Assembly: GCA_021776685.1 (NCBI GenBank)
Contig: JAJFFJ010000150.1
Location: 1-34,625 of the forward strand
DNA: 34,625 nt
Direction: 5' to 3'
From: Alphaproteobacteria bacterium
GTDB lineage: Bacteria; Pseudomonadota; Alphaproteobacteria; Bin65
The notes beneath the pieces are model-generated. The model saw only the letters and a list, made by a program, of their open reading frames with translations. It did no database searches and was not told the DNA's origin. Position 1 is the first letter of the stretch. Each line of letters opens with the position of its first letter. Shown here one piece after another: positions 12,174-14,269 of this stretch. Position numbers and translations under genes: made by a program.

Positions 12174-12739
12174 TCTGGCTGATTTCGGAAATTCTTTTGC
12201 CCATCATCGTTGCCGGCCTGCTCGGCCTCGGCTTCGGAATCTGGGTCGCCAACAGGTATTTCGACCGCAAGGTGCAGGAGCGCGATGCGCAGATCGCCCG
12301 GCTGAAACTGGAGCGGGACAATGCGGCCGCCAACCGGCCGGGCACGGGCGGGCAGGTAGAAGTGGCGCCGGTGCGGCAGCCGGCCAAAGACGAGACGTCG
12401 AAGCCAAAGCCCATCAAGCTGGATGACGACAAGCTCAAGCCTCGCATGGAGCCGACGCTTGCCAACGGCAGCGCGGCGCCGGACGTGGCGGGGATCAAGC
12501 CGGACGGTCTGCCAAATCCGGTGGACGGCAAGCCGGATGATCTGAAGGAGATCACCGGCGTGGGGCCGAAGATCGAGCAGTCGCTGCACGAGCTGGGTAT
12601 CTACCACTATGACCAGGTTGCACGCTGGTCAGAGGCGAATGCCGCATGGATCGACGGCATGCTCAAGTTCAAGGGCAGGGTCGCCCGGGAGAAATGGGTC
12701 GAGCAGGCCCAAGAACTGGCCGGCGACCAAGACGGGTGA
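12170..12739 (+). CDS. Membrane-anchored helix-hairpin-helix protein
   Basis: A 189-residue protein: an N-terminal transmembrane segment (about 5-27, LLPIIVAGLLGLGFGIWV), a short coiled-coil stretch (FDRKVQERDAQIARLKLERD), a low-complexity Pro/Lys linker, and a C-terminal helix-hairpin-helix domain (about 123-185) with DLKEITGVGPKIEQSLHELG and YHYDQVARWSE. Such domains occur at the ends of several alphaproteobacterial proteins and often bind DNA or RNA, but no function is demonstrated here. Its start overlaps the OmpA-family stop by four bases. The broken tRNA-Leu begins 76 bases after its stop. Confidence 0.75.
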   Translation: MIWLISEILLPIIVAGLLGLGFGIWVANRYFDRKVQERDAQIARLKLERDNAAANRPGTGGQVEVAPVRQPAKDETSKPKPIKLDDDKLKPRMEPTLANGSAAPDVAGIKPDGLPNPVDGKPDDLKEITGVGPKIEQSLHELGIYHYDQVARWSEANAAWIDGMLKFKGRVAREKWVEQAQELAGDQDG

Positions 12740-12815
12740 GTGTTCATCCTGACACACCTACAGGCGTTGTATTGAGCGAACCCGCCCCCCACGATACCGT
12801 AGGCGCCTTCAGGCG

Positions 12816-12854
12816 GCCCGCTTGGTGGAACTGGTAGACACACAAGACTTAAAA
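12816..12854 (+). pseudogene. 5' half of a split host tRNA-Leu(UAA) gene
   Basis: Begins with acceptor strand GCCCGCT, then the D-arm (TGGTGGAACTGGTAGAC), anticodon stem CAAGA (12843-12847) and loop CTTAAAA (anticodon TAA at 12850-12852). The match to a tRNA stops exactly at the end of the anticodon loop. The matching 3' half lies 1.2 kb away at 14077-14122. Joined, they give a perfectly paired 85-nt tRNA including CCA, with no decay in either half, so the interruption looks recent. Confidence 0.88.
12845..12854 (+). repeat. Left 10-bp direct repeat (attL-like core)
   Basis: AGACTTAAAA, identical to 14067-14076. It consists of the 3' end of the anticodon stem and the whole anticodon loop of the split tRNA. 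Tyrosine recombinases commonly cross over in tRNA anticodon loops. Confidence 0.75.
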
Positions 12855-13007
12855 CTTTTCGTAATTCGTCCCAAGCTTAGGATGCCCCAGAAATCCTGCG
12901 TTTTAAGCGTTAGATACACAAGACTAATTGGTGGACTGGTTGAGTCCCAATATTGAGAAACCTTTTCCGGGTGTTGCAGCACCGTTTTCGCGTGTTGGGA
13001 AATGCCG

Positions 13008-13036
13008 TTGGGCGCAATAGATGGTGTTGATATACA
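13008..13036 (+). promoter_or_regulatory. Promoter for the insert-borne tRNA-Leu and DUF4393 gene
   Basis: TTGGGC at 13008-13013 and TATACA at 13031-13036 are separated by the ideal 17 bases. Transcription would start near 13043, about 14 bases before the tRNA. The insert therefore does not depend on the host tRNA promoter. Confidence 0.5.
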
Positions 13037-13056
13037 ATTCAAATCAATACCGTTCC

Positions 13057-13141
13057 GCGGGCGTGGCGAAATCGGTATACGCAGCGGACTTAAAATCCGT
13101 TCTCTTTGGAGTTGGGGGTTCGAGTCCCCCCGCCCGCACCA
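13057..13141 (+). tRNA. tRNA-Leu(UAA), intact, inside the insert
   Basis: The acceptor GCGGGCG pairs with CGCCCGC (13131-13137), followed by A73 and an encoded CCA (13139-13141). Anticodon stem GCGGA/TCCGT (one G-U) with loop CTTAAAA; anticodon TAA at 13091-13093. The variable arm of about 13 bases is class II, typical of Leu. T-arm GGGGG/CCCCC with TTCGAGT. It differs clearly in sequence from the split host tRNA-Leu(UAA) but has the same length (85) and anticodon, so it is a foreign replacement rather than a duplication. Confidence 0.95.
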
Positions 13142-13156
13142 ACTGATGGGCAAAGT

Positions 13157-13960
13157 ATGGCTGACAAAGAAAAAGATTCTGAGGAAGAGACAGTAGCGCT
13201 GCGCGCGCTAGGACCCGGGGCAGATGAATTCGCCGACGCGTCGAAAGGAACTGGAGCCTCCCTCGGTCGTACAGCATTAACAATCGCTCGAACACTAGAA
13301 GAGGTTGTACATTCTCCAAGGCTAATTATCATTGGGTATAAAAAGATTAAGGAAAAATTGCTACCACTATTAGATCGCAAACTTGAAGATGTTCCAGAAG
13401 ATAATATTCAGATGCCCTCAATATCAATTGCTGGCCCGACGCTAGAAGCCTTACGGTTTTCTATCGATGACGACGATATTACCGATCTATTTGCAGGATT
13501 ACTTGCATCATCGATGAATAAGAAATCTGCGAAATTTACCCACCCGTCGTTCGTGACAATAATCCAACAGCTGTGCCCTGATGAAGCAAAAATCATTAAA
13601 TATTTATCTGGAAAAGCGGACTATCCATTGTTAGAAATTAGAATGGCTAAAGATGGATATAAAATAATTGAACAAAATTTTACTGATATAAATAGTCAAA
13701 TTGATTTAGATATTCCAGAATTAGCTTCTTCATATATTGATAATTTATCAAGACTTGAAATAATTACGACGTCGGTTGATATTTATATAAATGATGCAAA
13801 AGTGTATGAAAATGTAACTAGTTTGGCGAACAAAAAATATGAATACTTTGCTAAAGATATGCCTAATGACCTGGAGGGTTACAAACTTGATTTAAAGAGA
13901 GGTATGATCCGTATTAGCAATTTTGGGCGAAATTTCATTAACTGCTGCGTTTCTATATAA
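13157..13960 (+). CDS. DUF4393 (Abi-alpha type) protein, candidate phage-defence gene
   Basis: A 267-residue protein starting ATG 13157 (MADKEKDSEE), 15 bases after the tRNA CCA end. The conserved DUF4393 block is clear: PSISIAGPTLEAL (residues 87-99), then DDDDITDLFAGLLASSM (104-120) and THPSFVTIIQQLCPDEAKII (128-147). Pfam, as I recall, groups this family as Abi_alpha, putative abortive-infection proteins; the mechanism is unknown. There is no signal peptide; a weak hydrophobic patch (RLIIIGY) is near residue 58. No good Shine-Dalgarno is seen, so translation may depend on tRNA processing creating a short leader. Composition shifts from near host-like at the 5' end to very AT-rich in the 3' two thirds, which suggests foreign origin. 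Confidence 0.8.
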   Translation: MADKEKDSEEETVALRALGPGADEFADASKGTGASLGRTALTIARTLEEVVHSPRLIIIGYKKIKEKLLPLLDRKLEDVPEDNIQMPSISIAGPTLEALRFSIDDDDITDLFAGLLASSMNKKSAKFTHPSFVTIIQQLCPDEAKIIKYLSGKADYPLLEIRMAKDGYKIIEQNFTDINSQIDLDIPELASSYIDNLSRLEIITTSVDIYINDAKVYENVTSLANKKYEYFAKDMPNDLEGYKLDLKRGMIRISNFGRNFINCCVSI

Positions 13961-13975
13961 ATTCTGGCTATAGAT

Positions 13976-14017
13976 TGCTGCAATATGTGCTGCAGGAATT
14001 CTGCAGCATTTGCAGCA
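13976..14017 (+). repeat. Nested TGCTGCA inverted repeats / hairpin at the right end of the insert
   Basis: Outer arms TGCTGCAA (13976-13983) and TTGCAGCA (14010-14017); inner arms TGCTGCAG (13988-13995) and CTGCAGCA (14001-14008) with a 5-base loop. All arm pairs are perfect. It begins 15 bases after the DUF4393 stop. It could terminate or stabilise that transcript (only a weak TTGTTT follows), or serve as a recombinase-binding array. Confidence 0.6.
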
Positions 14018-14066
14018 TTGTTTGAGAAATGTATGGGAAGTACTGGGGAGAAGTGCAGGTCCAATT

Positions 14067-14076
14067 AGACTTAAAA
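14067..14076 (+). repeat. Right 10-bp direct repeat (attR-like core)
   Basis: AGACTTAAAA, identical to 12845-12854; the flanking bases differ on the insert side (T14066 against A12844). It forms the anticodon loop of the right tRNA half. Confidence 0.75.
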
Positions 14077-14122
14077 TCTTGGGCTTTCGGGCGTGCGAGT
14101 TCGAGTCTCGCAGCGGGCACCA
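14077..14122 (+). pseudogene. 3' half of the split host tRNA-Leu(UAA) gene
   Basis: Contains anticodon stem TCTTG (pairs with CAAGA of the left half), the class II variable arm, T-arm GCGAG/CTCGC around TTCGAGT, acceptor AGCGGGC (14112-14118, pairs with GCCCGCT), A73 and CCA (14120-14122). Every stem with the left half is perfect. It has no promoter-like sequence directly in front and cannot form a tRNA alone. The following 147 bases up to ccmD hold no gene I can support. Confidence 0.88.
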
Positions 14123-14269
14123 CTTATCCCAAATACCGCCGGACCACATGCCGCAGTGTTTTGGTCTGATTTGCGCCACAAACTTTGGGTCAATTCCCGC
14201 GTCAATTCCCCATGCTCATCCGCGCCCCGGGTTTGCCCCTGACCGGCCCGGTTTGCGGACGGAGAAGCC

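Follow-up and report, generated by a model that had tools for sequence, protein, structure and literature searches.

A split tRNA-Leu(UAA) gene enclosing a replacement tRNA and an Abi_alpha gene, a candidate integrase-less cassette in Alphaproteobacteria

Analysis of the window, a stretch of 34,625 nucleotides of alphaproteobacterial DNA, revealed a native tRNA-Leu(UAA) gene split by an insert of 1,222 bp (about 12855–14076, as delimited by a split-tRNA detector), inside which lie a second tRNA-Leu(UAA) gene and an Abi_alpha gene. We consider it rather probable that this insert is a non-autonomous integrative cassette, whose tRNA offsets the disruption and whose tRNA transcript would express the cargo gene. 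The features, in window coordinates, are the following.

12816..12854, + strand: native tRNA-Leu(UAA) 5' half, broken in the anticodon loop (5' end at 12816 from the split detector)
12845..12854, + strand: left AGACTTAAAA, a 10-bp direct repeat, presumed recombination core over the anticodon loop (sequence; match overlap in relatives)
12855..13056, + strand: left arm, 202 bp, with one TTGCAGCA site at 12974–12981, a presumed integrase arm site (motif and shuffle analysis)
13057..13141, + strand: replacement tRNA-Leu(UAA) with encoded CCA (tRNA call; Rfam tRNA, 62.8 bits)
13142..13156, + strand: spacer of 15 nt from the tRNA CCA end to the ATG (sequence)
13157..13960, + strand: Abi_alpha gene (PF14337/DUF4393; PADLOC PDC-S47), 267 aa (Pfam, PADLOC, no internal stop)
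13961..14066, + strand: right arm, with four TGCWGCA sites at 13976–13983, 13987–13994, 14002–14010 and 14011–14019 (motif and shuffle analysis)
14067..14076, + strand: right copy of AGACTTAAAA, the 10-bp direct repeat (sequence; relatives)
14077..14122, + strand: native tRNA-Leu(UAA) 3' half with CCA (matches in relatives, fold of the rejoined gene, split detector)

A chance split is excluded, because segment 12816–12854 joined to 14077–14150 gave a perfect 85-nt tRNA-Leu(TAA) in the ARAGORN fold, and because relatives have both native halves side by side in an uninterrupted gene, where the two matches overlap by 10 bases (e.g. in G044). The GC content of the insert was 0.41, versus 0.63 for its flanks; the genes flanking it on the right side include ccmD and ccmE, as identified by Pfam. 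Abi_alpha, in the same direction as the replacement tRNA, was the only protein gene of the insert, and an ORF and Pfam search of the 1,222 bp detected neither an integrase nor phage genes. In the left arm, TAGATACACAAGACTAATTGG (12911–12931) agrees with the native tRNA 5' half in 14 of its first 15 bases, and 11 of its last 12 bases agree with the right junction read as reverse complement; this segment may be what an earlier integration left behind, or a site for a recombinase.

The inserted and native tRNA-Leu(UAA) share 65–68% identity. A pattern search of the window's own genome (158 contigs, 98.85% complete) for UAA leucine tRNAs, allowing up to three mismatches, found, besides the inserted tRNA, only the broken 5' half and a gene with a CAA loop. 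By sequence, the inserted tRNA is thus the sole intact UAA leucine tRNA found in this genome. It is very probably the last remaining reader of UUA codons, and would therefore be essential.

The sequence-only reading had named the cargo a DUF4393 gene, and profile comparison bore this out: the product of 13157–13960 matched Pfam Abi_alpha (PF14337) with an E value of 8e-50, over positions 7–196 of the 196 in the profile, and its score of 170 bits against a gathering cut-off of 29 makes it a full-domain member of the family. It also matched PADLOC PDC-S47 (E 4e-48). Among 10 window proteins taken as a control, two reached a PADLOC E value of 1e-6 or better via generic domains; as PADLOC alone is therefore weak proof, the defence assignment leans on the Pfam matches and on how much of the profiles they cover. 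An AlphaFold model of the protein had a mean pLDDT of 85. When this predicted fold was compared with others, only 3h35, an uncharacterised protein, stood out, and it suggests no mechanism. The window protein probably acts by abortive infection, since Abi-alpha of Enterococcus faecalis prophage 6 (EF2833), which belongs to the same Pfam family PF14337, gives premature lysis following infection (PMC6356687, in the accessible part of that paper). The E. faecalis gene differs in being a prophage gene for which that part of the paper describes no replacement-tRNA setting, while the window protein is known from its sequence. In a draw of 96 genomes of relatives the window protein was matched in one, its own, and the family was present in 8 of 385 genomes of the class. 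Homologues also occur in 73 phage records, of which 55 are from Staphylococcus; in phages 80alpha and BUCT556 the Abi_alpha gene runs in the direction opposite to that of the genes next to it.

To find out how far the layout of the window recurs, the tRNA 5' half was used as a pattern over the 385 class genomes, and the matches listed were read and then passed to the split-tRNA detector. In two genomes of a single other genus, G130 and G318, the same anticodon loop of tRNA-Leu(UAA) is interrupted, by inserts of 1109 and 1219 bp, and among the matches listed a second tRNA-Leu(UAA) follows the split one at 285–317 bp. Each insert consists of a left arm (278 bp in G130, 246 bp in G318), a replacement tRNA-Leu(UAA), a single gene and a right arm. 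The distance from the tRNA CCA to the ATG is 13 or 15 nt, compared with 15 nt in the window, and the core repeats are 17 bp long in G130, 11 in G318 and 10 in the window. The cargo genes are different: that of G130 encodes a HEPN_AbiV protein (PF18728; Pfam E 2.6e-13, PADLOC AbiV E 9e-9), and that of G318 a DUF4145 protein (Pfam E 2.7e-7, PADLOC PD-T7-4 E 3e-11). A third genome of the same genus, G233, has an empty site: of the 1006 columns in its alignment with the joined G130 flanks, 867 match, and it contains, letter for letter, the rejoined native tRNA of both G130 and G318. Because the gene is uninterrupted in G233, comparison of these sequences shows that the G130 and G318 elements were inserted into a tRNA gene.

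Intact examples number three only (window, G130 and G318), two of them from one genus. An exact 35-base tRNA signature was present in 4 of the 385 class genomes, three of which are those of the elements; the fourth, G266, has the signature in an unsplit place. The signature was found in 3 of 387 genomes of an overlapping draw, none of them new, and in 2 of the 4 genomes of the family of G130. A looser tRNA pattern matched 269 of the 385 class genomes, and the pairs seen are those among the matches listed. Over 140 tRNA-bearing loci, many of them overlapping, the split detector reported the three elements and one more, at tRNA-Leu(CAA) in G037; a tRNA-Arg chimera (L011/L096) and a tandem-tRNA artefact (L054) were judged to be chance positives.

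Inspection of the arms revealed a repeated motif, TTGCNGC. Counted on either strand, it occurs 15 times in the six arms of the three elements (4 copies in the window, 6 in G130 and 5 in G318), whereas 2000 shuffles gave 1.2 copies on average and never more than 6. The window copies (one left, three right) gave P 0.0015 against shuffles, for a motif that was picked after the sequences had been viewed. These repeats fit putative arm-type integrase sites. Left and right, the G130 and G318 arms aligned with each other beyond all 500 shuffles, and common descent of these two elements is well supported by their sequences. The similarity of the window arms to the others was weak (left arm, P 0.014 with G130 and 0.390 with G318; right arm, 0.074 and 0.008, respectively); sequence comparison makes the window element a likely member of the same descent. 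A single lineage of element tRNAs was not borne out, as the three element tRNAs came together in 0% of 200 bootstrap trees (49 rows, 87 columns), in a tree that was poorly resolved. A phage origin of these tRNAs was likewise not supported, their best identities being 0.79–0.85 with viral and 0.85–0.87 with bacterial sequences.

The sequence-only reading had placed the ATG 15 bases past the CCA without a clear Shine-Dalgarno sequence, and both statements hold: the tRNA ends at 13141 and the ATG starts at 13157, and the best anti-Shine-Dalgarno duplex reaches only −2.4 kcal/mol (−0.5 in G130, −4.0 in G318). An independent promoter between 13141 and 13157 is ruled out, as the 15-nt gap is too short. 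The promoter-like sequence claimed upstream of the tRNA was not confirmed, since a sigma-70 consensus scan of the + strand from 12600 to 13156 found none; over the whole region the scan gave 4 sites, for 3.0 expected. By eye, the candidate upstream of the tRNA is a weak TTGGGC-N17-TATACA near 13008. Because the spacing of 13–15 nt between tRNA and ATG recurs in the three elements, the cargo is probably transcribed by read-through from the tRNA unit, and the tRNA and Abi_alpha would then be on one shared transcript.

In the mechanism that we propose, a tyrosine-type integrase acting in trans would recombine a circular cassette, in the order right arm, core, left arm, tRNA, cargo, with the host tRNA gene used as attB. 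As the shared stretch is only about 10 bp, the host tRNA gene would not be rebuilt, and the cassette tRNA would cover the essential function thereby lost. The replacement tRNA would both permit insertion and make imprecise loss lethal, hence serving as a retention device. The cargo would lack a promoter of its own and be read through from the promoter of the cassette tRNA or from the captured native one, its mRNA being released by tRNA 3' processing, and its product would act like E. faecalis Abi-alpha, by early killing of phage-infected cells.

A helper integrase was sought in several collections. None of the 7 integrases of the window's own genome has the arm motif TGTTGCNGC nearby, and in the 1.98 Mb (58%) of G130 that was searched, one integrase-like match was found, without an arm cluster. 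In viral contigs the arm pattern gave 4 matches, all within long ORFs and none relevant as a helper. The attP-junction pattern and the strict tRNA signature of the helper search gave 0 matches each, as did the right arm searched against plasmids.

The main rival of the cassette is a decayed prophage: a tRNA-dependent temperate phage would have integrated, and everything would have been deleted except the essential tRNA, the adjoining useful defence gene and the attachment arms. We regard this history as possible but doubtful. Phages that combine an integrase, a tRNA-Leu(UAA) and a GACTTAAAA core seem to exist: a related tRNA-Leu(UAA) signature occurs in 70 viral contigs, and four of these, L341, L346, L393 and L381, have an integrase match and the core, 92–96 bp from the signature start and shortly after the tRNA; in L341 the core is followed by a tRNA 3' half. 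By their sequences these four are candidates for tRNA-dependent lysogeny at tRNA-Leu(UAA). Lo5R7ANS-like prophages do likewise at tRNA-Leu(UAG), according to the accessible part of PMC11476347. That decay around a kept tRNA happens is indicated by the tRNA-Leu(CAA) locus of G037, with its replacement tRNA and broken ORF. Against such a history, the three inserts all measure 1109–1222 bp, keep both arms, and carry unrelated single genes 13–15 nt after the tRNA, so that independent deletions would have had to converge; moreover, the TGTTGCNGC arm motif was absent from the att regions examined in L341, L346, L393 and L381. In a further viral contig, L358, the tRNA-Leu(UAA) also has a core nearby, and the contig gave an integrase match.

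The sequence-only reading had proposed that cleavage or depletion of tRNA-Leu by phage or host nucleases controls the expression or activity of Abi_alpha, the tRNA and the gene forming a sensing module. The order of tRNA then gene, common to the three elements, is compatible with sensing, as are the cargo of one element, with a HEPN domain (PF18728), and that of another, with DUF4145; HEPN proteins are often RNases. However, the need to replace the split gene already explains the tRNA, and Abi_alpha of E. faecalis prophage 6 functions with no tRNA linked to it, as far as the accessible part of PMC6356687 describes. Nor is DUF4393 tied to tRNA genes: none of 48 homologue loci (8 from the class, 37 from genomes and 3 from plasmids, the window's own left out) has a tRNA within 50 bp, an absence of enrichment that the sequence-only reading had itself named as telling against its proposal. 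In the two phage records whose annotation was read (80alpha and BUCT556, of the 73), no tRNA is listed in the stretch by the Abi_alpha gene. A DUF4393-specific tRNA association thus fails, and sensing is very improbable. What stood of the proposed module is that a replacement tRNA and a gene of the abortive-infection type are paired in an insert lodged in a tRNA gene; this pairing is real and recurs in G130 and G318 with other defence-type genes. The special link to DUF4393 did not stand. Least credible of all is an ordinary transposon insertion or a group I intron. The 10-bp repeat does look like a target duplication, and tRNA-Leu(UAA) genes are well known as hosts of group I introns, in which the 5' exon ends in U and the intron in G. 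Yet the insert has no terminal inverted repeats at its ends and no transposase, no Rfam intron match was obtained at E up to 1, the repeat varies (17, 11 and 10 bp) as a fixed duplication would not, and the same anticodon-loop position is used in three genomes, with a full tRNA in each insert.

The integration logic of the favoured cassette is known from phages. In actinobacteriophages Fionnbharth, Gabriela and Gaia, an attP/attB core of about 10 bp is used for tRNA-dependent lysogeny, the host tRNA is not rebuilt, and the element supplies the isotype (PMC10865867, accessible part). Similarly, the window insert has a short 10-bp core inside a tRNA gene, a native tRNA that was not reconstructed and a supplied tRNA of the same isotype. 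In contrast, the actinobacteriophages are complete temperate phages that encode an integrase themselves, whereas the window-type elements, of 1.1–1.2 kb, are integrase-less and have one defence-type gene right after the tRNA. With only Abi_alpha in place of an encoded tyrosine integrase and a phage genome, the window insert works like tRNA-dependent lysogeny without being a phage lysogen. Closer in host are the Lo5R7ANS-like prophages of Sinorhizobium meliloti, also an alphaproteobacterium, in which a leucine tRNA gene, tRNA-Leu(UAG), is disrupted mid-gene and replaced by the tRNA of the element (PMC11476347, accessible part). They differ in the isotype UAG and in having a phage genome with an integrase, and no TTGCNGC cluster was found in the integrase-tRNA region of one such phage (NC_025431). 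The phiLM21-like prophages rebuild the tRNA, as stated in the accessible part of PMC12429752.

Among non-phage elements, cis-mobilizable elements (CIMEs) are derivatives of ICEs, and we know of no replacement tRNA in their definition. CIMEs and helper-dependent satellites resemble the window insert in keeping attachment sites and lacking the recombinase, presumably being moved in trans; satellites or hitchers rely on helper elements (PMC11389934, accessible part). An integrase-less, tRNA-replacing defence cassette was not found in the literature searched, which lay mostly outside subscription papers and preprints. What may be new here is the integrase-less version with one defence gene, the logic of tRNA-dependent integration being already known.

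The recurring layout with differing defence genes suggests, on comparison of the three elements, a small mobile route for phage immunity. A more speculative extension, which we put forward tentatively, is a family of defence cassettes of about 1.2 kb that would borrow the integrases of tRNA-dependent temperate phages. Such cassettes would combine a constant frame (arms and replacement tRNA) with swappable single anti-phage genes; the tRNA would be the insertion licence, the lock against imprecise loss and the cargo promoter, and the cassette would fill the attachment site of the helper phage and kill infected cells. Large islands, prophages and satellites are where defence genes are generally looked for. 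Should single ones indeed travel as 1.2-kb units that occupy an essential tRNA gene, annotation overlooks them, because tRNA finders cannot see the split native gene and nothing marks the replacement as unusual. In that case, searching for an intact tRNA gene nested between the halves of another of its isotype would be a simple test for listing cassettes and candidate defence genes. The reach of tRNA-dependent integration would extend from phages to minimal integrase-less elements, with a clear addiction logic.

Other leucine tRNA loci were interrupted in different ways. In G037 (L015, G037:C68), a 611-bp insert interrupts tRNA-Leu(CAA); it contains a replacement tRNA-Leu(CAA) along with a broken ORF, lacks the arm motif, and is possibly a decayed cousin of the window-type elements. 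A 15-kb insert in G149, inside which no tRNA was found, was treated as another kind of insertion, as was the locus of G333 (L117, G333:C18), where an integrase-like gene lies beside a broken tRNA-Leu(UAA) 5' half. In G254 (L118, G254:C184), of the same genus as G333, a tRNA 3' half has a foreign 5' part. From their sequences, the G333 and G254 loci appear to belong to an integrase-bearing island at the same tRNA-Leu(UAA); no replacement tRNA was found on these short contigs. The 1.66-kb insert of G215 (L165, G215:C1), where the 5' half is duplicated and the tRNA-Leu(UAA) rebuilt, is also of another kind, and encodes a 432-aa protein that is beta-lactamase-like by eye. Finally, at locus L140 of G130, some 608 bp past the native tRNA 3' half and behind an AAA_18 kinase-like gene, lies another tRNA-Leu 3' half, a partial one, as if an earlier, conventional one-gene insertion had taken place at the same tRNA.
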